Origin: Holophagae bacterium
GTDB taxonomy: Bacteria; Acidobacteriota; Thermoanaerobaculia; Thermoanaerobaculales; Sulfomarinibacteraceae
DNA: 32,175 nucleotides
NCBI GenBank assembly: GCA_030618605.1
Contig: JAUXDC010000008.1
Span: 1-32,175, forward strand
Direction: 5' to 3'
The notes under the pieces are model-generated. The model was not told the origin of the DNA. It ran no database searches and saw only the letters and a list, made by a program, of their open reading frames with translations. Numbering within the stretch: position 1 is the first letter of the stretch; each line of letters begins with the position of its first letter. Made by a program: the position numbers and the translations under genes. Below, piece after piece: positions 381 through 28,479 of the stretch.

Positions 381-3116
381 ATGGTATGGCATGGTAATGG
401 TGTGACAACCTCAGCCGCTGACTTTCTCAGTCTCGCAGAACGAGAGGCCTCCCGGCACGGTGGCGAGAGCATGGTATTCCTCAGGGAGCTGCTTCAAAAT
501 GCCAGAGACGCCGGAGCGCGAAAGGTCGTCATTGAAACCAGGGTCGAGCAGGGTGTCGAGGCGATCACGGTGACGGATGACGGGAGAGGAATGGCCCTGG
601 AGCATGCCCAGCGCTTTCTTTTGACCCTCTACGCCTCGAGCAAGAGGGGAAACGCAGATACCGCTGGGCAATTCGGTGTTGGTTTCTGGTCGGTTCTGAG
701 ATTTGAACCGACCGAGATCACCCTTCGGTCGCGCTCGGTGGGGGCCGAGGAAGGCTGGGAGATCGTCTTCGATTCCGGCCTGGGGGTACGTGACCATAGA
801 AAGTGCCGGATGCCGGTGGGCACCTCCATCCGGATGGTACGTCCGGCACGTACCGGCGATCTTGGGACGTCGGCATGGGAATTGGTTCGGCGGGATTCGC
901 GCCATCTCAGGCAGACGGCACCTTCCGAGGAATTGCTGGAGGTTCTTGTCAACGGTCGCCAGGCGACAGAACCGATAGCAGCCCAAGAACCGGGCATTGT
1001 GTTTCGTCGATCCGGTCTTCGGGGTGCAGTTTCTCTGGGAGCAATTCCAGAGGTGATACTGCTGGCCCACGGTCTCAGGGTCCGGGCGGCTGCCTCTGTC
1101 GATGACCTGCTGCTTCGCCCGGATCGTCGGCTCAAGAAATATTCCCAGGTCCCAACCTCCGGGTTGTCGCCCCGTGTCGTTATCGATAGCGATCGTTTGG
1201 CCGTGTTGATGGACCGTGGCGACGTGGCACAAGACCGGGCTCTGGTTGCCGTAGCTCGAGTCATCCGGTCGGAGACCCGCCGTCTGTGCGAAATGGAGCT
1301 GGAACGCCTGGCGCCTCGGTCTTTATGGCAGAGAATCCGAGATACCGCGGTTGGTCGCCGGCTTGCGATTGGTGTCAGCGTATTGATGCTGGCCGGTGTG
1401 GTCTTCGGGCTGTGGGGCGCCGCCATTTTGAACGAGAGACTATCCCGCTCGGGAATCCCAGGCCCTCCTCCCGCAGCCGGAGGATTGACGCCCAAATCGT
1501 ACTTTGATCGGTCATTTTCGTATGGCGGTCCGGTGACCGAAAGGATCGAAGGTGTCGGAGGCGTTCCCGACCTCGCGTACCGACCCCCGGATCAACGGCC
1601 GTTCCTGGCGGCCTTCCACGTTGCCGGTATCGACGAAGGAGGAAAGCCGCTCAAGAATGAGTGGCCGTTGCGGTTGGCCGAAAGGTGGGATGGTAGCTCT
1701 GCGTCGAGCCTCAAAATTGAGCTTGGTTTTCTGGCATCCACGCCTCTGCTGAGGCTTCCGGTTTCGACGGGTCACGTTGTTGACGCGGCATCGGTTCTGC
1801 TCAATGGACACTCTGCGAATTTGTGGTTGACGCCCGACAACGAGCCGGTCCTGCGCCTGGATTCAGAGAAGGCAGGACGGGTTGCCTATCGGACCGTCGA
1901 GCGCGCGTTCGAGATACAGGGTGCCGGGCGTTGGCCTGTTCTTCCGCCTGCTGTGGCTCGAAGGGCAGCCGGCCTTGAGAAATTGCCGTCCGCGCAAAGG
2001 GTTGATGAGGCAATAAAGCTGGTCAGGGTCTCGCTGGGCTCATCCGGGCAGTTTGAAAATTCGAATTCAGGTAACTCGCAGCCGGCAGGTTTTTTCGGCC
2101 CGGTCTTCAGGGCCGGGGGCGGTGATTGCGATGTCGTCAATACCGTCCTGGCGGCCGTTCTCAGCAAGGCCGGGCTGAGATCCAGATTGGCTATTGGTTG
2201 GAGAGGGGCCGGGGGAGCACCGATGCCGGGTCTTCATGCGTGGGTTGAAGTCGATCTGGGAGCGGGTCGGTGGGTTCCTGCCGACGCGACGGTCCCGATA
2301 ACGGGTGGGGCGGTCGTGCCACAAACCGAACAAACAGTTGAACTGTGCATCAATGATCGTCCCGAAGGGAATCCGGATCGGTCACTTTGGAGGGTCGGCC
2401 TGCTGGGAGGGAGTTCCCTGATTTTGGTCGTCGTGCTTGTGGTGAGGAAGTTCAAAATTCAACGGGAGTTCAATACACCCGGCGACCTCGACACTGGACC
2501 TCTGGTCGAGTCGTTGGTGCGGGACCGGGAGGCATGGCCTGGGTTTGCCGGGGCCAGGAGGCGCGACCTGGTTCCGGCTCACGGAGCGGATCGGCAGTCT
2601 CTGGCGGGTATTGAAGATGCCGCCTTGAGTATGGACCTTTTCGTTGCTGAGTCTCCGGGCGAATGGGTGGCGCGGGCCAGAGAGGGAGGCGCCATGGTCC
2701 TTGACGGGTCGACTCATGCCGGGCGCGTTGCGGCTTCGGCATTCGGCGCTTTTGACCTCGGTCGATGGGAGGATCTTTGGCAGCGATCCCGAACTGATTC
2801 GTTGTGCTTGGAGATTCAAGAAGCCCTCCTCCAAAACGGGATGAAACTGAAAATTCGACGTGCAGACGGCGTAGCGGGTGGCGTTGGCTCAGGATTCTTG
2901 GTGGACGGTGGGGCGACGGCTTGGATGGTGATTGACGACGATAACCGTCAGTGGCGGTTGTGTCGCGATCGTATGGAAGAGAATCGTGCGGAGGCGATTT
3001 TCCGTGCCGTCGATATCGTCTTTGCAGTCTTGCCGTCATCCGGGGCGCCGGCCCAACAGGCCCTGGCGGCGCTGGCCCGGGATGCATTGAAGGCCATGGA
3101 GCAACGGCCGGTATGA
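381..3116 (+). CDS. Membrane protein fusing a GHKL/Hsp90-type ATPase to a transglutaminase-like domain
   Basis: Residues 1 to about 150 form a GHKL ATP-binding domain. The N-box reads RELLQNARDAG (Glu36, Asn40), the G1 box TDDGRGM (Asp66) and the G2 box GQFGVGF (96-102), as in Hsp90, MutL and histidine kinases. Linker sequence follows, then a membrane segment at about 327-350, a roughly 320-residue region and a second membrane segment at about 671-688. The region between them ends in a transglutaminase-like fold with a plausible Cys-His-Asp triad: Cys583 in GGGDCD, His619 in GLHAW and Asp635 in PADAT. A cytoplasmic tail of about 220 residues closes the protein. The likely topology is ATPase inside and transglutaminase-like domain outside. 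ATG 381 lacks a clear ribosome-binding site; TTG 363 and GTG 402 are alternatives. The stop overlaps the next gene's ATG, so the two are translationally coupled. The substrate is unknown. Confidence 0.85.
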   Translation: MVWHGNGVTTSAADFLSLAEREASRHGGESMVFLRELLQNARDAGARKVVIETRVEQGVEAITVTDDGRGMALEHAQRFLLTLYASSKRGNADTAGQFGVGFWSVLRFEPTEITLRSRSVGAEEGWEIVFDSGLGVRDHRKCRMPVGTSIRMVRPARTGDLGTSAWELVRRDSRHLRQTAPSEELLEVLVNGRQATEPIAAQEPGIVFRRSGLRGAVSLGAIPEVILLAHGLRVRAAASVDDLLLRPDRRLKKYSQVPTSGLSPRVVIDSDRLAVLMDRGDVAQDRALVAVARVIRSETRRLCEMELERLAPRSLWQRIRDTAVGRRLAIGVSVLMLAGVVFGLWGAAILNERLSRSGIPGPPPAAGGLTPKSYFDRSFSYGGPVTERIEGVGGVPDLAYRPPDQRPFLAAFHVAGIDEGGKPLKNEWPLRLAERWDGSSASSLKIELGFLASTPLLRLPVSTGHVVDAASVLLNGHSANLWLTPDNEPVLRLDSEKAGRVAYRTVERAFEIQGAGRWPVLPPAVARRAAGLEKLPSAQRVDEAIKLVRVSLGSSGQFENSNSGNSQPAGFFGPVFRAGGGDCDVVNTVLAAVLSKAGLRSRLAIGWRGAGGAPMPGLHAWVEVDLGAGRWVPADATVPITGGAVVPQTEQTVELCINDRPEGNPDRSLWRVGLLGGSSLILVVVLVVRKFKIQREFNTPGDLDTGPLVESLVRDREAWPGFAGARRRDLVPAHGADRQSLAGIEDAALSMDLFVAESPGEWVARAREGGAMVLDGSTHAGRVAASAFGAFDLGRWEDLWQRSRTDSLCLEIQEALLQNGMKLKIRRADGVAGGVGSGFLVDGGATAWMVIDDDNRQWRLCRDRMEENRAEAIFRAVDIVFAVLPSSGAPAQQALAALARDALKAMEQRPV

Positions 3117-4618
3117 CTGAACTCCTGCTCTCGGTTGATCCGGACGCGGCATTCGACGCGGTGGCTCATGATCAAATCGGCGGCCCCTATCAGGTTCCGG
3201 CCGAATTGGTCCGCCTGGTCCTTGCCTTTGGCGCCACCACCGTCGACGTTCAATGCCGAAGGGGCCGGGTCGTGGTCGATGCGCCTGGGGCGGTCCTGCC
3301 GGAGTCAGCCACCGAAGCGCTGAGGCGGGCCTCGTGTCAGGGAAAGGATGTCGTGAGGATTCAGGCCCTGGCGACTCTGGAGGATCTCGACGCCTCGGCC
3401 CTTGGATGGGCGGTTGGGTTACGTCCGCGGCGGCTGGTGATCCGTTCGTGGGCGAGGGGACGGTCGACGACACTCAAGGCCAGGGGCCGCGAGGCACTTC
3501 ATCTTTCGCACGGCGGCGGTCGGCCGGAAGACGGGGTTTTCATCGAATTGACCCGGCCGCAGCTGAATTTCAAACGAGCTCACAGGTGGCTCGAGATAGC
3601 CTGTCGTTTTGCAGTCGTGCCCGTCGTCGTCAACGGCCGGAATGTGCAACGCGACATGGACTCAGGGTGTTTCCGGGCCCGCATCGCAACGCCCTTGCCG
3701 GCCGTGATCGGGCTTGGAGTCGATCTGGGCGCACCAAGGCTGTGGTTGCTGCGCCATGGGGTGGTGGCGACTCGTGTTGGTGTTCCCAACTGGCCGCCTT
3801 TCGAAGCGGCCGTCGAATTACAGGGCCTGGTGCAGGGCAGGGTTTCGGCAGCGCAGCTCAGGGAGGCTATGACGCCGCATCTTCAGGCGTTGATCTCCCG
3901 TGTCGTCGAGTTGACTCTGAGGGTCGTCCCGCGCCTCTCCGAGTTGAGTGCCGACCATCGACAACGAATTATGTCCGCGCTGTTCAAGGCTGCGGAGAGG
4001 GGTCTGGCACTCCAGGCGATCCGGCAATCGCCCCTGGTGGAAATCGTCGATGGCGATACCAAACGATGGGTGTCGCTCGAGGCCCTGGAACAGTGGCCGG
4101 GGCCGCTACCGGGAGTTCTCGGAAATGATGCGAAACCCGGGGAGATTGAGACACCTCACATGCTCCTCGGTCTGGGAGAACGGCAGAGGGTTGCCGCCTT
4201 GATTGGCAGAATCCTGCCAGGCGCCGTCATCAGGCCGCTCGGTCCGGCGCCGGCTTTCAGACGATCGGTGCGTGCGGTGCTGGTGTTCCTTCGTGGCTTG
4301 CTGGGGCCCCACTCACTTCCCAACAGCCGTTTGACACATGAGGAGAGAGGCCTGATCGAGGCATTGGAGGGTGCTTTGAGGGTTGGGGGACGACCGGTCG
4401 CCGTCTCACTGTGCCCTGGTCGGGGTGTGCCCCGAACCATTGTGCGCCGCCTGATCCTGGCCCGGGACCGAACGGAAACTCGCCAGGCTGTTCTGGCGGT
4501 TTCGATGGACCCGGCATGGGCCTATGTCGTTGCTGTCGCAATGAAAGGGCCGGACTGCACGGTGGCGTCCAAAATTCGATCGGCCTGGTTTCTTCGGAAT
4601 TCCGGGGGTCTGGTGTAG
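3113..4618 (+). CDS. Degenerate GHKL/Hsp90-like protein, partner of the upstream ATPase
   Basis: This 501-residue soluble protein starts at an ATG overlapping the previous stop (ATGA). The frame is open further upstream, but the overlap marks the natural start. Residues 20-185 follow the order of a GHKL domain: a helix at the N-box position (about 28-40), a strand pair ending VVVDAPGAV at the G1 position, ALATLEDLDASALGWAV at the G2 position, and a later strand with VVVNGR. The N-box Asn and the Gly-rich G1 and G2 residues are missing, so ATP binding is doubtful. Residues 190-501 match nothing I recognise; they are rich in Arg and Leu and have no membrane segment. I infer a catalytically dead paralogue that pairs with the active ATPase. 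The GHKL assignment rests on the order of motifs by eye; a weak Hsp90 (HtpG)-like relative is the alternative. Confidence 0.7.
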   Translation: MTELLLSVDPDAAFDAVAHDQIGGPYQVPAELVRLVLAFGATTVDVQCRRGRVVVDAPGAVLPESATEALRRASCQGKDVVRIQALATLEDLDASALGWAVGLRPRRLVIRSWARGRSTTLKARGREALHLSHGGGRPEDGVFIELTRPQLNFKRAHRWLEIACRFAVVPVVVNGRNVQRDMDSGCFRARIATPLPAVIGLGVDLGAPRLWLLRHGVVATRVGVPNWPPFEAAVELQGLVQGRVSAAQLREAMTPHLQALISRVVELTLRVVPRLSELSADHRQRIMSALFKAAERGLALQAIRQSPLVEIVDGDTKRWVSLEALEQWPGPLPGVLGNDAKPGEIETPHMLLGLGERQRVAALIGRILPGAVIRPLGPAPAFRRSVRAVLVFLRGLLGPHSLPNSRLTHEERGLIEALEGALRVGGRPVAVSLCPGRGVPRTIVRRLILARDRTETRQAVLAVSMDPAWAYVVAVAMKGPDCTVASKIRSAWFLRNSGGLV

Positions 4619-4668
4619 CATCGGGGGGTCAGATCGCCAAGATCACTATTTTAAAGGAGGAGGGGAAC

Positions 4669-5076
4669 ATGTCGTTGATGTTGTCTGGAATGTTGTTGGC
4701 ACAGGATACGGGGTATGACGCTGCCGGTAGTGCCGCTGGTGCAGCAGGGAGTCTGCTGTTTATGATGATCTGGTTTGCCGTAGTGGTCCTGGCCATCGCC
4801 GGGATGTGGAAGACCTTCGTCAAGGCAGGAAAACCAGGGTGGGCGAGTTTGATCCCGTTCTACAACCTGATCGTACTTCTGGATATTGCTGGCAAACCAC
4901 TGTGGTGGTTCATCCTGCTCTTCATCCCATTGGTGAACTTCGTCGTTGTGATTCTGGTTGGAATCGCCGTTGCCGCGAAATTCGGCAAGGGCGCCGGCTT
5001 CGGTTTGGGCATTGCGTTCCTCCCGATGATTTTCTATCTTATTTTGGGCTTTGGGGACGCGCAGTACCAGGGGTGA
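4669..5076 (+). CDS. Small membrane protein, DUF5684-like
   Basis: This 135-residue protein starts at an ATG 9 nt after AAAGGAGG. An alanine- and glycine-rich N-terminus is followed by about four hydrophobic segments (roughly 28-47, 61-75, 80-104 and 111-130). The motif GKPGWASLIPFYN after the first segment is typical of DUF5684 proteins, which are often found beside signal peptidase or as standalone membrane proteins of unknown function. It lies 50 bp after the degenerate GHKL gene on the same strand and is closed by a strong terminator. It may be read with that operon, although its good ribosome-binding site would also suit a separate small transcript. Confidence 0.75.
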   Translation: MSLMLSGMLLAQDTGYDAAGSAAGAAGSLLFMMIWFAVVVLAIAGMWKTFVKAGKPGWASLIPFYNLIVLLDIAGKPLWWFILLFIPLVNFVVVILVGIAVAAKFGKGAGFGLGIAFLPMIFYLILGFGDAQYQG

Positions 5077-13790: not shown

Positions 13791-13826
13791 CAGCCCAGGC
13801 TGCTGCTGAATGGCGGCGTCACCGTT

Positions 13827-13908
13827 GCGGGCCGGGAGGCCCGCGCTCCTTGCTCGTTGTCCTTGGCTGGTTCACTTCCGCCTTCATTTTTCATCCTTCC
13901 GCCTTCAT
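13827..13908. repeat. GC hairpin and CTTCCGCCTTCAT repeats upstream of nnrS
   Basis: A perfect 7-bp stem (13827-13833 with 13838-13844, loop GGGA) is followed by two exact 13-bp direct repeats of CTTCCGCCTTCAT (13875-13887 and 13896-13908). A reverse-complement relative lies near 21082-21093. These look like dispersed intergenic repeats. Confidence 0.5.
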
Positions 13909-13923
13909 CTCCCCCTTCCCCTG

Positions 13924-13929
13924 TATCAT
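13924..13929 (+). promoter_or_regulatory. Putative -10 element of nnrS
   Basis: TATCAT ends 6 nt before ATG 13936. There is no Shine-Dalgarno sequence and no clear -35, because the upstream DNA is repeat sequence. Confidence 0.35.
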
Positions 13930-13935
13930 CGGCCG

Positions 13936-15090
13936 ATGAATCACGTATTTTTTCAAAAGGGTTTCCGTCCTTTCTTTCTTTTTGGGGCTTTGCTTGGGGC
14001 AGCGCTTGTTCCTTGGTGGGCTGCTTCATATGACGAGAGTCTGACGGGGGAGCCCGGACTTGAGGGCATCGCTTGGCATAGCCACGAGATGATCTTCGGG
14101 TTCGCCGTGGCGATTCTTGCGGGTTTTCTGTTGACCGCGGTCGAGAACTGGACCGATCGAAAGACTGCTCGGGGCGGGCTCTTGATCGCATTGGTCGCCA
14201 TTTGGGCCATCGGCCGGCTGGTGGGTTTTGGCGGCGTCATCGCATCGATCGCGGGCCTCGCGGAACTGAGCTTCCTGCTGGTGCTTACCGTAGTCATTGG
14301 TATTCCATTGATCCTGGCCGGCAGTCGCCGAAACTACCTGCTTTTGGCAGCGTTACCGGCGCTCTGGTTCTGCGATGTCGTCCACCACCTCCGTGCCTCC
14401 GGGCTCTTGCCGCAAACTTCGGTGCGCGGAGACCTGGTGGCGGTGGATATCATCGTGCTGATCCTGGTCGTGGTTACCGGGCGCATTGTTCCGCTGTTCA
14501 CACGCAACGCCCTACAGGATCAGCGCGTGCAGGCTATTCCAAGCCTCAATATGGCGGCCATCGTCGCCGTTGGCCTGATGGCTCTGGTCGAGATCTTCGC
14601 TCCAAGCGGTATCGTGATGGCGGTGGTTGCCGGCGCCGCGGGCCTGTTGGTTTTTGCACGAGCCGTACGGTGGGGAGCGCATCGCACCCTCGGCAGCCCC
14701 ATCTTGTGGATCCTCCACCTGGGTCACGCATGGATCGGCGCCGGTCTGCTGATGAAAGCCGTCTCCGCCGTCTGGTTGGGCCTACAACCGAGTGTCGCGA
14801 CCCACGCCCTGACCGCAGGCGCCATCGGCACGTTGACCCTGGGCATGATGGCGCGGGTCACTCTGGGCCATACCGGCCGCACGCTCAAGGTGTCGCCGTT
14901 GATCACGATTGCCTTCATCGCCATCACCATCTCTGCGGTGTTGCGCGTCTTCGGTCCCTGGTTCCAGCCCCAGTTGACTCGCACGGCTCTGATCGTTTCG
15001 GCGGGCTGCTGGTCCGCGGCCTTTATTCTGTACGTTGTCGTCAATGTTCGTTATCTGTTGACCCCTCGGCCTGACGGCAAGGAGGGGTAG
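13936..15090 (+). CDS. nnrS: NnrS family haem- and copper-binding membrane protein
   Basis: This 384-residue polytopic membrane protein has about 12 hydrophobic segments. It opens with QKGFRPFFLFG and contains AWHSHEMIFGF and later GRIVPLFTRNAL, all hallmarks of NnrS. Characterised NnrS proteins contain haem and copper and protect denitrifying or pathogenic bacteria from nitric oxide stress. The position just upstream of the nap genes fits nitrogen-oxide metabolism. I chose ATG 13936 because homologous sequence begins there; the frame upstream is repeat DNA. Confidence 0.93.
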   Translation: MNHVFFQKGFRPFFLFGALLGAALVPWWAASYDESLTGEPGLEGIAWHSHEMIFGFAVAILAGFLLTAVENWTDRKTARGGLLIALVAIWAIGRLVGFGGVIASIAGLAELSFLLVLTVVIGIPLILAGSRRNYLLLAALPALWFCDVVHHLRASGLLPQTSVRGDLVAVDIIVLILVVVTGRIVPLFTRNALQDQRVQAIPSLNMAAIVAVGLMALVEIFAPSGIVMAVVAGAAGLLVFARAVRWGAHRTLGSPILWILHLGHAWIGAGLLMKAVSAVWLGLQPSVATHALTAGAIGTLTLGMMARVTLGHTGRTLKVSPLITIAFIAITISAVLRVFGPWFQPQLTRTALIVSAGCWSAAFILYVVVNVRYLLTPRPDGKEG

Positions 15091-15103
15091 AGAGGGGAAA
15101 GTT

Positions 15104-15145
15104 TGAAGGGTGAAGGGTGAAGTTTGAAGTGTGAAGTTTGAAGGG
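15104..15145 (+). repeat. Six tandem copies of a 7-bp repeat
   Basis: Six uninterrupted heptamers of the form TGAAGNN (TGAAGGG, TGAAGGG, TGAAGTT, TGAAGTG, TGAAGTT, TGAAGGG) fill the gap between nnrS and the next gene. The last copy merges with that gene's ribosome-binding site (15141-15148). Confidence 0.85.
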
Positions 15146-15155
15146 GGAGACTGAC

Positions 15156-15644
15156 ATGCGAAATGGAGTTTGTTCACTGATCGTTCTGGGAATCATACTG
15201 TGTCCCTTGAGCCAATCTGCCGCATCGAATGAAGCCGAGGCTGCGATCGAGACTGTTCTGGACGCTTTCCACCTCGCCGCGTCCGAGGCTGATGGTGAAC
15301 TCTATTTTTCCCTCTTTTCCGACAACGCCGTGTTCATCGGTACCGACGTCACCGAGCGCTGGTCGATCGAGCAATTCAAGGCCTTCGCAGAGCCGTATTT
15401 TTTAAAGGGCCAAGGATGGACCTATGTTCCCGGCGAACGCCACGTTGCCGTCTTGCCCGGAGGAACATCCGCCCGGTTTGACGAGATCCTCTCAAACGAG
15501 AGTTATGGGACCTGCAGAGGTACCGGTGTCCTGATCCTGACCTCCGCCGGGTGGCGAATCTCGCAGTACAGCCTGACGATCCCAATTCCCAACGAACTGG
15601 CCCGAGACTTCGTTGGCCTCATCAGGGAGTTGGGGACCCCTTGA
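15156..15644 (+). CDS. Exported SnoaL/NTF2-like protein
   Basis: This 162-residue protein has a signal peptide (about 1-23, ending QSAAS). The mature part has the NTF2-like cone fold pattern of DUF4440/SnoaL-3 proteins: IETVLDAFHLAASEADGELY, then LFSDNAVFIGTD and a C-terminal strand run ending near SQYSLTIPIPN. Such proteins bind small molecules or act as accessory domains; no catalytic set can be assigned. It starts at ATG 15156, 7 nt after AAGGGGGA. It sits between nnrS and napD on the same strand, so it may belong to the nitrate operon. Confidence 0.8.
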   Translation: MRNGVCSLIVLGIILCPLSQSAASNEAEAAIETVLDAFHLAASEADGELYFSLFSDNAVFIGTDVTERWSIEQFKAFAEPYFLKGQGWTYVPGERHVAVLPGGTSARFDEILSNESYGTCRGTGVLILTSAGWRISQYSLTIPIPNELARDFVGLIRELGTP

Positions 15645-15731
15645 CCACAATCCTTTCCTAGAGAACAGCAGAGAGCGGATTTCCGGGTTCAGGCAGACCT
15701 CGAAATGCTATTATCTCTTGTGGATTGGTTC

Positions 15732-16016
15732 ATGTGCGAAATTCTGCAAATTTCAGGTCTCAGTGTTGTTGCCCAGGCAGGACAGCTCGCTGCGGCTGCG
15801 GATGCCATCGCCGACTTGCCCGGCGCGGAGGTCTTCGCCAGGGACCCCGAAACGGACCGGCTCGTGGTGGTCCAGGATCTGCCGAGCGTCGAGGAACACA
15901 TGGAGGGTCTGCGTCGAATCCAGGCCTTGCCTCAGGTGCTCGTGGCCGAACTGGTCTACCACCGCAGCGAGTTGGACGAGGAAAACGAAGAAACCCGGTT
16001 AGTCGGGAAACAATAG
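15732..16016 (+). CDS. napD: NapD, chaperone for periplasmic nitrate reductase maturation
   Basis: This protein of about 94 residues has the NapD pattern: LQISGLSVVAQAGQLAAAADAI, then GAEVFARDPETDRLVVVQD and a final VLVAELVYHRSE strand, a ferredoxin-like fold. NapD binds the Tat signal of NapA and holds it until the molybdenum cofactor is inserted. The frame is open from ATG 15705, but ATG 15732 fits the family's N-terminus better, and a TATTAT at 15709-15714 could be a -10 between the two. Neither start has a good ribosome-binding site. It precedes napA by 9 bp. Confidence 0.82.
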   Translation: MCEILQISGLSVVAQAGQLAAAADAIADLPGAEVFARDPETDRLVVVQDLPSVEEHMEGLRRIQALPQVLVAELVYHRSELDEENEETRLVGKQ

Positions 16017-16025
16017 GAGTAGGGG

Positions 16026-18794
16026 ATGGGTGATCCACTTTCACGACGGGGATTTGTCAAAATTGGTGTCGGCGCAGCCACAGCGTCCGCCCTCGGTATG
16101 CCAACATTTGCAACGGAAGCTGCTGCGGCGATTGAGGTCGGTGTCGACTGGGAGAAAAGCGTCTGCCGCTTCTGCGGGGTTGGTTGCGGTCTGATTGTCG
16201 GCAGTCGTGACGGCCATGTCGTCGCTGTCAAGGGCGACCCGAAGGCGCCGGTCAACCGCGGCCTTCTGTGCGTTAAGGGCTACGCAAATGCCACGATGCT
16301 CTACGGCGCCGATCGGCTGACGAAACCGCTGTTGCGGATGAAGAACGGTCGATTCGACAAGCAGGGCGACTTCGTCGAGGTCTCGTGGGAGCGTGCCTTC
16401 GACGAGATGGAAAGGCAGTTCAAGAAGGTCTACGGTGAGCTCGGTCCGACCGGTGTGGGCGTGATGGGTTCGGGCCAGTACACCATTCCCGAGGGATACG
16501 CCGCCGTCAAGTTGGTCAAGGCGGGTTGGCGTTCGAACAATCTCGACCCCAATGCGCGCCACTGCATGGCGTCGGCGGTGGCCGGGTTCATTCAGGTGTT
16601 CGGCATCGACGAGCCTGCCGGGTGCTACGACGACATCGAGTTGACCGACACCGTGGTCACGTGGGGCGCAAACATGGCGGAGATGCACCCGATGCTCTGG
16701 GCGAGGGTGATCGACCGGCGGCGTGCGGCGCCGGGCACACGGATCATCAACCTGACGACCTATTCGAACAGGACGTCGGATTCGGCCGACGAAGAAATCG
16801 TCTTTCGTCCACAAACCGACCTTGCGATCCTCAACTACATCGCCCGCGAGATCATCGAACGAGGCGCTGTCGACAGGCAGTTTGTCGATCGCCATTGCGC
16901 GTTTGCCACCGGCCCGTACGACATCGGCTACGGCATGCGGTCGAACGACGCCGTCGCCTTTCCGGCCGAAAAGGACACCCTCGCCCGCGAACGGCGAGTC
17001 ACCCTGACCCCTGAGGAGGCGATCGCTCAGCGCCGGGGTGGTGGAGACCAGGCGGTCGTTGTCGATCAAAAAAACACTGCCAAGGCAGGCGCTCACTGGA
17101 TCATCGCCTTCGAGGATTACCGAAAAGCCCTCAAGCCCTACACTCTCGATTTCGTCGCCGAACTGGCGAAGGGTGACCCGGACGAAGACCTGGACGAATT
17201 CAAGGCCAAACTGAAACGGCTCGCCGATCATTATGTGGACTCAAATCGAAAAATTGTCTCCTTCTGGACGATGGGTTTCAACCAGCACACTCGTGGGACC
17301 TGGGTCAACGAGCTGATTTACGCCGTTCACCTCTTGACCGGCAAGCACGCCAAGCCCGGCAACGGCGCCATGTCCCTGACCGGACAGCCGTCTGCCTGTG
17401 GCACGGCGCGCGAAGTTGGTACTTTTGCCCACCGCCTCCCGTCCGACATGGTGGTTGCCAATCCGGCTCACCGGAAGCGTTCTGAAGAGATATGGCGATT
17501 GCCCGGGGGGACCCTCAATCCCAAGGTCGGCAGCCACATCACGAAGATGATGCGTGACATCGAGGATGGGTCTTTGCGCTGGCTCTGGGTACAGGTCACC
17601 AACCCCTTCCAGTCGACCGCCAATGCGAACCACTGGATCACCGCCGCACGAGAGAAGGATTGTTTCATTGTTGTTTCGGACATCTATCCGACCCTGTCGT
17701 GCAAGGTGGCGGATTTGATTCTGCCCGCCGCGGGACACTTCGAGAAGTGGGGCCTTTACGGCAATACCGAAAGGCGGACGCACGCATGGCGGCAAGTGGC
17801 GAACCCCATCGGTCAGGCGAGGAGTGACGTCTGGCAGATGATGGAGTTTTCCAAACGTTTCACCCTGGCTGAGACCTGGGGCCAACACAGTGTGCCCGGA
17901 CTCTCGGCCGCAGGCTTCGAAGACGGCCGCCTGGGCTCCGTACTCGAGCAGGCGAAGGGAATGGGCTACAAGCCTGAAGATACCCTGTACGACGTGCTCT
18001 TCGCGACGCCGGAAGCTCTCAAGTTCAGCTGGCCCGACCCGGTGGCTGCCGGTCGTCGAAACGGCACCGTCGAGGCTGCCGGCATCGACTGGTTCCCCGA
18101 GAAGGCGCTGTTCGAGGAATACACCAAATTCGGACAAGGTCACGCCCACGATCTTGCAGACTTTGACACCTACTACCGAGACGATGTGCGGGGTCTCCGC
18201 TGGCCGGTCATCGACGGCAAGGAGACGTTGTGGCGATTCAACGAAGACTACGACCCCTACGTCACGGCCGGCGCCGGATTCGAATTCTATGGACCGGCGT
18301 TCAAAAGCCTGAAACGTGGAACCCTGGACGCACCAGGTGGCGGCGATCTCGAGTCCCTGGCCGGCAAAGCGAAGATCTTCTTCAGGCCCTACGCGGCTCC
18401 GGCCGAGAGTCCGGATGAAAAGTTTGATCTTTGGCTCTGCACCGGCAGGGTCCTTGAACACTGGCATTCGGGTTCAATGACCCGTCGTGTGCCCGAACTC
18501 AACGCGGCGATGCCGCACGCCCTGGCCTACCTTCACTCTGCCGATGCCAAGGCACGGGGTGTGCAGCACCACGAAGAGGTGTGGATTGAGTCGCGACGGG
18601 GTCGGGTCAGAGTGGTTGTGGAGACGGAGGGGCGTAACCGGGTCCCGCGCGGGATGGTCTACATTCCGTGGTTCGACGAGTCGGTGTTCATCAACAAGGT
18701 CACCCTCGACGCCACCTGCCCGATCTCCAAGGAGATCGACTTCAAGAAGTGTGCCGTCAAGCTGTACCCGGTGGGTCAGGAGGCACGATCATGA
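16026..18794 (+). CDS. napA: Periplasmic nitrate reductase, catalytic subunit NapA
   Basis: This 922-residue molybdoenzyme reduces nitrate to nitrite in the periplasm. A Tat signal opens it (SRRGFVKIG, 6-14). The [4Fe-4S] cysteines are Cys47, Cys50, Cys54 and Cys82. Cys180 in [10 protein letters not shown] is the likely molybdenum ligand. Further landmarks shared with NapA are [32 protein letters not shown] and [13 protein letters not shown]. It is longer than E. coli NapA (828), with extra sequence around 308-345 and in the C-terminal half (about 660-770). The stop overlaps the napB ATG. A ribosome-binding site (AGGAG) precedes ATG 16026. Confidence 0.96.
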
Positions 18795-26324: not shown

Positions 26325-26334
26325 TTATTGTGGC
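26168..26334. repeat. 167-bp AT-rich fold-back element with a central palindrome
   Basis: GCCACAA (26168-26174) pairs with TTGTGGC (26328-26334). Inside, an A-rich left arm and a T-rich right arm match imperfectly, for example CCACAAAAAGGTACG-type sequence around 26184-26205 against the complement at 26291-26313. The centre is a perfect 20-bp palindrome (26235-26254). The element is much richer in A and T than its surroundings. The stop codon of the cytochrome gene (26325-26327) lies inside its right arm, so the element could end transcription from both sides. Confidence 0.7.
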
Positions 26335-28328
26335 ATTCCCTTCGATTTATGTAAGCGCCTCGATAGATTGTTTTTCTTTCTGTCAACTCCGAGAGGAGAG
26401 TTGTTAATCAGGTTTCGGTCTTCTACCGTCCCAGCCTGCTGAGCCCGGCTGAGTTCCTCGATCTCATCCTCGGTATAGCCGAGTTCCTTCCAGTCCATGA
26501 CGCCTTGGGGACCGTGGCAATTGTCACAACTGAGGGCGCCGTCTAACCGAATGGCGTGGCTGATTTCCAGCATGGGGTCTGTGGGCACCCAACGTGGTTC
26601 GGTGTTGCGTCCAGCCTTGACGTCTTCAAAGCTGTTGAGGTTCCACCCGTCGATATCCATGTAGGACATGAAACGGTCGAGCATGTAAATCTTGAACATC
26701 CAGCCATACATCATGCCCATCATGCTCTTGTCCATCTCGAGGCGTGCGGCCTGGTCGGGATCCCCGTTTTGATAGTAGTCAGGCAGGTTATAGGGTACGA
26801 ACATGCCCCCAAACGGTCCGATGTTGCCGAGGTCGATGTGCTGCCGACCGTTGAACCTCTTCATGGGGTAGATCTTTGACGGTCGGCCGTTCCTCGCGAT
26901 CGGGCGCATCACGTCTTCAAACCAGCCCTCGTAGTCGAAATTCTCAAACTCGGGCCAGCGATATTGGGCGTTGTAGAAGGTGTAGAGACCGGCTTCGTTG
27001 GGATTGTCGCCGATGGGATTTCCCAGGAACGTACAGTCGCCGTTCCACCAGACGTAGTTGATGCCCTCTCCGGGCGCAGAGAGCTTCAGCTCGTCGTGAT
27101 AGATGTGAATTCCAGGACCTTCTTCAAATTCGGTTGTGCCGAAGTCTCGCCGGGTGACGTTGTCGGGATGCAGCGATGGGATGTGGCAGGTCTGGCATGC
27201 CATGACGTCGATGTGGCTGTTAAGTGAGGGACCCAGGTCGCTGTTTTCATCGTGGGGTGGGTCGTCGTGGCAGTCCAGGCAGGACACCTCCACATGAGGG
27301 AGATCGTTGGCCATCATCGTGGTCGTATGTGTGCCCTTGGCCATCAGATGACCCTGGGCATGGTGGCAGTCAAGACAACTCAAACCGGCGGCGGCGTGCA
27401 CGTCCCAGGTGGGGGAGTAGGGAGTGCCGCGTTTCGAACCGGGGTGCTGGACTCTGGGGCGCTCGCGACCGAGGTTCAGCAGACTCTGGGAGTACTCGGG
27501 GCCGGCCGGGTCGATATAGAGGTCTCCGCCCATGTTGTGTTGATGACATCGCAGACAGGCGACGGCTGAAGGTTTTGTCACCGACAGGGCGGCTTTCAGG
27601 GTGCGGTCCTGACTCCAACGGTTGCGTCCGTTGGGGTCGGTGACAACCTGTTTTTGATTCATGTCGTAGGCGATGGCGTGGCAGATCAGACAGTCGATGG
27701 CTTCCCTTTCCACTGTCAGGGTCCGGTACAGGGGCATCATCTCGCCCAGGGGCGCCTGGTATTGGCCGCCGATGTGGCACTGGCCGCAGCCTTCGCTCAT
27801 GGTGTCGCCGTCGGCTGTCGTGACGACCTCGGCCCAGGCTGTCATGGCAAAGGAGCCGGGTTTTGGGCAGGGGCGGTTCAACTTGCCCATGGCAAAGTTG
27901 TCGGCCTTTTCACCGTTGAAACCCCAGACATTGGGGTGTTCTTTCGTGAAAAATCGAAAGTGGGCGGAATCGGTCAGATTCGCCATCAAGTCGACCGTTT
28001 GCTCTTGGCCTACCGCGTCGGTGTAGTCGAGTGTCTCGTGACACTTCAGACATGTGGCCGGCCCGTCGTAGGAAAGAATACCCGCCTCTCGGAACAGCTC
28101 GACATGGTTGAATTCGGAGGCAGCCTGCGGGAAATTGATTTCCAAGGCGGTAAAAATGGTCTCGAATTCCTCAGGAGTGACGGGAACGACCACCCGGGGG
28201 ATGCGCCCGGGCCTGCTGTCGGCAGGCATCATGACATTGATCAGATGGGACCACGAGAGTCCAACTACCACAACAACAATCAAAAAAACGGCGAATGAAA
28301 CCGGACGCCAACTTCGGAATAACGGCAC
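26325..28328 (-). CDS. Membrane-anchored octaheme cytochrome c
   Basis: This 667-residue protein starts at GTG 28328, 5 nt after AAGGAG; the frame is open upstream but without such a site. Residues 9-30 form one membrane anchor, and the rest should be periplasmic. There are eight CxxCH haem sites, at about 93, 181, 213, 258, 318, 350, 378 and 601. None is CxxCK. The spacing and the HIDVMACQTCHIP stretch resemble the octaheme tetrathionate reductase family and its relatives, some of which reduce nitrite or hydroxylamine. The long stretch without haem sites between the seventh and eighth (about 220 residues) could be a substrate or partner domain. The reaction is unproven. Confidence 0.86.
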   Translation of the reverse strand: MPLFRSWRPVSFAVFLIVVVVVGLSWSHLINVMMPADSRPGRIPRVVVPVTPEEFETIFTALEINFPQAASEFNHVELFREAGILSYDGPATCLKCHETLDYTDAVGQEQTVDLMANLTDSAHFRFFTKEHPNVWGFNGEKADNFAMGKLNRPCPKPGSFAMTAWAEVVTTADGDTMSEGCGQCHIGGQYQAPLGEMMPLYRTLTVEREAIDCLICHAIAYDMNQKQVVTDPNGRNRWSQDRTLKAALSVTKPSAVACLRCHQHNMGGDLYIDPAGPEYSQSLLNLGRERPRVQHPGSKRGTPYSPTWDVHAAAGLSCLDCHHAQGHLMAKGTHTTTMMANDLPHVEVSCLDCHDDPPHDENSDLGPSLNSHIDVMACQTCHIPSLHPDNVTRRDFGTTEFEEGPGIHIYHDELKLSAPGEGINYVWWNGDCTFLGNPIGDNPNEAGLYTFYNAQYRWPEFENFDYEGWFEDVMRPIARNGRPSKIYPMKRFNGRQHIDLGNIGPFGGMFVPYNLPDYYQNGDPDQAARLEMDKSMMGMMYGWMFKIYMLDRFMSYMDIDGWNLNSFEDVKAGRNTEPRWVPTDPMLEISHAIRLDGALSCDNCHGPQGVMDWKELGYTEDEIEELSRAQQAGTVEDRNLINNSPLGVDRKKNNLSRRLHKSKGMPQ

Positions 28329-28479
28329 GGTGACTCCTTGGCTAGACAGACATTGGGGCAGAGGGTGTGAGAACGAGCAATCGGGGGCTGCCCCTTTGTA
28401 CGACAACCCCGCCGAAACCATATCACGCTTCACGATTTCGTTCCCGACGATCTGGACTGACTCGGATCAATTCATTCTC

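Follow-up and report, generated by a model that had tools for sequence, protein, structure and literature searches.

A GHKL ATPase fused to a transglutaminase-like domain and its pseudo-ATPase partner: a conserved two-gene system of Acidobacteriota with a putative role in the cell envelope

What could be achieved by joining, within a single polypeptide, an ATP-binding site of the GHKL type and a transglutaminase-like (TGL) active site, and by pairing this polypeptide with a second, GHKL-like protein? The question is raised by two genes at one end of a 32,175-nucleotide stretch of DNA from a Holophagae bacterium (contig JAUXDC010000008.1; hereafter the window), which is one contig of a 396-contig assembly and begins 380 bp upstream of gene 1. 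Both open reading frames were confirmed on the forward strand, together with the 4-bp overlap (ATGA) between them that had been reported in the initial annotation. The features referred to below are as follows:

381..3116, +: gene 1, 911 aa from ATG 381 or 904 aa from GTG 402; order GHKL ATPase, transducer, TM1, external region, TGL domain, TM2, C-terminal domain (the location of the regions is predicted)
480..704, +: GHKL ATP-binding core, residues 34-108 (Pfam HATPase_c_3); N-box Asn40, G1 box Asp66/Gly68/Gly70, Lys88, G2 box Gly96/99/101
891..1355, +: second domain of the ATPase module, about residues 171-325, delimited by conservation and by its position after the GHKL core
1374..1430, +: membrane segment 1, about residues 332-350, from hydropathy, basic residues on the N-terminal side
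1443..1970, +: predicted external region before the enzyme, about residues 355-530, without known family, Leu459-Pro460 invariant
2094..2288, +: TGL core, residues 572-636 (Pfam Transglut_core), with Cys583, His619 and Asp635
2388..2444, +: membrane segment 2, about residues 670-688, from hydropathy, basic residues on the C-terminal side
2478..3113, +: C-terminal domain of gene 1, about residues 700-911, without known family, probably cytoplasmic
3113..3116, +: ATGA overlap of 4 bp between the stop of gene 1 and the start of gene 2
3113..4618, +: gene 2, 501 aa, soluble partner; N-terminal ~230 aa a degenerate paralogue of the GHKL-transducer part of gene 1, C-terminal part without known family

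Since the homologues start at the residue that position 402 encodes, GTG 402 is probably the conserved start of gene 1, rather than ATG 381. The overlap at its other end suggests translational coupling of the two genes, and the junction reads ATGA or GTGA in many of the homologous loci.

On the basis of its motifs, gene 1 can be assigned to the GHKL ATPase superfamily. The HATPase_c_3 match at residues 34-108 scored 40.2 bits against a cut-off of 25 (E 4.3e-10) and the protein carries the N-box asparagine (Asn40, within ELLQNARDAG), the DxGxG element (Asp66, within DDGRGM) and the GxxGxG element (GQFGVGF, at 96-102). The intact site described in the initial annotation was thus found where it had been placed, and the GHKL residues checked were kept in 40 or all of the 41 near-full-length homologues. 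A deviation, where present, is confined to one row per position and consists of a gap, an unknown residue or a substitution; at least one of these rows (L067) has a short N-terminus. Following the core, Arg279 is invariant in an alignment of 21 gene 1 homologues. An invariant arginine at such a place is expected of the nucleotide-reading residue of a transducer, as found in HSP90 and MutL, and the region of about residues 171-325 probably has that role. The AlphaFold model of gene 1, which was made from four sequences, had a mean pLDDT of 35.

The relation of this module to known GHKL proteins is one of general plan: like HSP90/HtpG, MutL and sacsin, gene 1 has a GHKL core with N, G1 and G2 boxes that is followed by a second domain, but it differs from all of these in its fusion to membrane helices and a TGL enzyme and in its pairing with a pseudo-GHKL protein. 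The nearest PDB profile to the GHKL part is that of HtpG/HSP90, and the NCBIfam cut-off for the sacsin N-terminus was just reached by the protein of the window (50.5 versus 50). These similarities, and the presence of groES-groEL adjacent or close to the pair in several genomes within the window's family, could be taken to indicate a membrane chaperone, with a GHKL part that folds or remodels clients and a TGL domain by which clients outside are processed or cross-linked as a form of quality control. We consider such a function improbable, given that the scores for the HSP90 family stay far below the cut-offs (45.8 bits versus 455 for PRK14083 and 19.9 versus 371 for HtpG) and that the groESL neighbourhood was not seen outside the window's family. 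Assignment as MutL was rejected as well (44.7 bits versus 180), and so was assignment as a sensor histidine kinase, as the GHKL match already starts at residue 34 and a HisKA match was lacking in the Pfam search.

With Cys583 (in GDCD), His619 and Asp635 in the proper order and a Transglut_core match above the cut-off (residues 572-636, E 1.3e-7, 32.3 bits versus 23), gene 1 also classifies as a member of PF01841. In addition, its profile matched the structure of TgpA (6g49) across the TGL region with an E-value of 2.5e-4. The three residues, which the initial annotation had put forward as a plausible triad, were confirmed at their positions and are invariant in all 41 near-full-length homologues, and the proposed fusion of GHKL and TGL domains in one chain was borne out by matches to both HATPase_c_3 and Transglut_core in 21 out of 21 aligned homologues. 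Considering that each of these homologues matches both families and that the catalytic residues hold across 41 of them, the domain matches are not due to chance. The invariant columns of the 21-row alignment, whose members share 20-75% identity with the window protein, are mostly those of the GHKL boxes and, in the TGL domain, of GDCD, LH.W and Asp635. At this degree of divergence, such a concentration of invariant positions in two sites shows that both are under strong selection. Within the genus, dN/dS was 0.25-0.32 for both genes.

The initial annotation had placed a single membrane segment between the two domains. The separation by the membrane stands, but hydropathy analysis indicated two segments instead of one (about residues 332-350 and 670-688), and these occur at nearly equal places in most of the 22 homologues compared, one or both being below the threshold in a few rows (L027, L055 and L065). 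The flanks of both segments agree with the positive-inside rule. Given the two segments, the TGL domain lies probably outside the membrane and the C-terminal ~200 residues are probably back in the cytoplasm, so that the simplest topology would be that of a cytoplasmic ATPase, an external TGL domain and a cytoplasmic C-terminus.

The protein encoded by gene 2 (P0002) had, taken alone, no match to a Pfam or NCBIfam family. Nevertheless, it has a GHKL fold, as established by profile-profile comparison, by Foldseek and by the Pfam matches of its homologues. Five of the 20 homologues matched HATPase_c_3 (best E 3.8e-9), and the family profile retrieved MutL chains from the PDB (best E 0.004). The comparison with the ATPase region of gene 1 gave a probability of 98.9% (E 1.1e-17, 194 columns), and the reversed control 0.8%. 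Against a control set of mostly MutL-type proteins the values were 97.3% and 2.4e-11, and although the alignment depths of the two comparisons differ, gene 2 is likely closer to gene 1 than to this set. The initial annotation, in which gene 2 was called GHKL-like, had proposed structure prediction as a check on both proteins, and for the GHKL part of gene 2 the outcome was positive: the AlphaFold model, based on a shallow alignment, was fairly confident over about residues 25-180 only, and all 50 Foldseek matches listed for it were GyrB/ParE/topoisomerase II, MutL or HSP90-type chains. The N-box asparagine is missing in all 24 aligned rows, which read ELVRLxL, ELVRAAL, QLVRHAL and similar, and the DxGxG pattern is kept in 4 out of 21. 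Judged by its sequence, gene 2 is a diverged paralogue of the gene 1 ATPase region that lacks intact ATP-binding motifs, and hence a pseudo-ATPase.

A second, more distant relation possibly exists between the C-terminal parts of the two proteins. Profile comparison aligned them over most of their length with a probability of 18.7% and a P-value of 0.0013, which is suggestive only; controls with the same part of gene 2, either reversed or compared to other regions, gave P-values between 0.02 and 0.5, and the score of the comparison went up when more sequences were included. Should this homology be real, then gene 1 would have arisen by insertion of a loop of helix, TGL domain and helix into a gene 2-like protein.

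The pairing of the two genes is strict. When each gene was searched for with its own profile, both were recovered from the identical 17 out of 396 sampled Acidobacteriota genomes and from none of the others. The initial annotation had named homologues that never occur as a pair as an observation that would speak against it, and in this sample pairing was complete. Strand and order were shared in all 41 loci where both genes could be read. According to profile position, gene 2 starts within about 36 nucleotides of the stop codon of gene 1 in 40 of these loci and 143 nucleotides from it in the remaining one. The pairwise distances of the two genes correlate with r 0.96, but part of this correlation, as of the co-occurrence, is owed to common descent and linkage rather than to contact. 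The whole-genome profile searches covered the Acidobacteriota, and other phyla were covered by a single-sequence scan of contigs that detects close relatives only. Gene 1 was found in the window's family and in the families labelled f13, f30, f39 and f75, and within the order of f39 it was present in 28 out of 34 genomes.

The distribution bears directly on the question whether the pair could be a defence or self-killing device, in which a TGL effector is released by an ATPase sensor. GHKL and TGL domains have both been found in conflict systems (PMC3710099, PMC8195603), and the PADLOC model of TmtA matched the GHKL stretch of gene 1 with an E-value of 8.5e-13. Only about 95 residues are involved, though (residues 14-109 against positions 59-151 of a model of 1486), and gene 1 was rejected as a TmtA. 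Moreover, no gene that looks defence-related was seen among the scanned neighbours, gene 1 is present in nine out of nine near-complete genomes of one order (that of f39), the gene tree groups by host family, no homologue was found in plasmid or phage records, and the one match among viral contigs involved the GHKL domain only. A role in defence is therefore very improbable, and a location in defence islands, which the initial annotation had named as a point to check, finds no support. The pair looks like a vertically inherited envelope system instead, and there is strong reason to regard the two genes as a real and conserved system.

The neighbours other than the pair itself vary between loci, which led us to reject a fixed third gene. 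In the window, the pair is directly followed by a gene for a small DUF5684 membrane protein (4666-5076, +; E 2.6e-25), which was also found 3' of the pair in two loci of the same genus and was not seen elsewhere. Divergently placed groES-groEL genes are located beside or near the pair in L003, L025 and L031, all of the window's family, and a protein of ~1120 aa adjoins it in L025 (10975-14346, -), with relatives in L026, L027 and L028; this protein combines an MFS/nucleotide-transporter-like membrane part with HEAT repeats and a cyclic-nucleotide-binding domain. The neighbours in other families include an MBL-fold protein, DUF3014, a LiaF-like protein, a zinc peptidase, a C69 peptidase, QueC and ribosomal protein L9. 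Elsewhere in the window, the region 13810-18794 (+) looks like one for nitrate/NO metabolism, with genes for NnrS, a NapD-like chaperone (15705-16016) and a molybdopterin oxidoreductase that appears to have a twin-arginine start (16026-18794), and a 702-aa frame at 26325-28433 (-) has a cytochrome c7/c3-type multihaem match at residues 344-417.

Among described systems, those around TgpA come closest on the enzyme side. TgpA loci usually have a cytoplasmic ATPase partner. TgpA of Pseudomonas aeruginosa (PA2873) resides in the inner membrane with its PF01841-type TGL domain outside; it is reported to be critical for viability, and its purified external domain has been assayed for transglutaminase activity (PMC3507681). 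Gene 1 resembles it in the predicted external TGL domain, over which its profile matches 6g49, but it lacks the multi-helix TgpA_N region (PF11992; no Pfam match in gene 1), its ATPase is a GHKL domain in the same chain rather than an AAA+ MoxR protein, and its partner is a pseudo-GHKL protein where TgpA loci have MoxR and DUF58. Neither of the latter two was seen among the neighbours identified, which represent the scanned part of a neighbourhood cut off 380 bp upstream of the pair. The genome of the window has its PF11992 gene on a separate contig (C210). Since a canonical TgpA-type gene is mostly kept alongside the pair in the window's family, the pair is not simply a TgpA substitute, and replacement was rejected for this family. 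In FtsEX with its peptidoglycan hydrolase activators, and likewise in LapD-LapG, a nucleotide state inside the cell controls a wall hydrolase or TGL-type protease outside. The likeness to these systems is one of principle only; they use other ATPase or receptor families and consist of separate proteins. We infer that the pair is functionally like MoxR–TgpA or FtsEX, without being a member of either. Current family libraries cover the gene pair only in parts, searches of the open-access literature found both domain types in conflict systems and no GHKL-TGL fusion, and the two-gene arrangement appears to be undescribed.

GHKL proteins are generally ATP-gated dimers. The reading that we favour, with moderate confidence, is that both genes encode one membrane machine, in which an ATP-gated clamp of gene 1 and its pseudo-ATPase partner controls the external thiol enzyme. 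The GHKL-transducer ATPase and the C-terminal domain of gene 1 would be cytoplasmic, the Cys-His-Asp enzyme would be outside between the two membrane helices, and gene 2, as a pseudo-ATPase copy of the GHKL-transducer part, would pair with gene 1. ATP binding would close the clamp, formed either by gene 1 and gene 2 or by a gene 1 dimer that is regulated by gene 2, and hydrolysis would open it. The movement, passed on via the two helices, may switch or position the enzyme, which in turn would cut or join peptide or amide bonds in a substrate of the envelope. What can be read from the sequences themselves is that both active sites are present and conserved, that there are two hydrophobic segments, that gene 2 is homologous to the ATPase region and that the pairing is strict; the outside location of the enzyme, ATP hydrolysis, complex formation, coupling from inside to outside and the envelope substrate are what we infer from them. 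The mechanism tentatively offered in the initial annotation, an ATP-driven change inside that would control a thiol enzyme outside while the partner would regulate the dimer, is compatible with all of the results.

The main rival to an ATP-gated clamp is signalling in the reverse direction. In that case the external TGL-like domain would bind or cleave an envelope peptide and thereby change the state of the cytoplasmic GHKL module, which, together with gene 2, would act on a target in the cytoplasm, much as a sensor histidine kinase does but without phosphotransfer. GHKL domains of membrane proteins are most often the outputs of external sensing, and the predicted topology offers two cytoplasmic domains and a soluble partner that could form an output side. 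An intact Cys-His-Asp triad in 41 out of 41 homologues, though, argues for catalysis over sensing alone, and the dimerisation domain of histidine kinases was not found by Pfam in gene 1, which makes inward signalling rather unlikely in our estimation. For the outward direction, with the clamp acting on the enzyme, a claim on what the system does can be made with moderate confidence.

To our knowledge, there are few ways by which cytoplasmic ATP controls enzymes beyond the inner membrane, and a conserved single-chain example would add a GHKL-based route from cytoplasmic ATP to an external enzyme. More tentatively, the pair may represent a new class of envelope machinery: a GHKL clamp of one active and one dead subunit would drive an external enzyme of transglutaminase fold through the membrane and from within a single chain, and gene 1 would derive from a gene 2-like protein that acquired the helix-TGL-helix insert. 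Both active sites are accessible to point mutation and a pseudo-ATPase partner is built in. With such a role, a gene pair that is all but universal in one order of Acidobacteriota would have its first assigned function.
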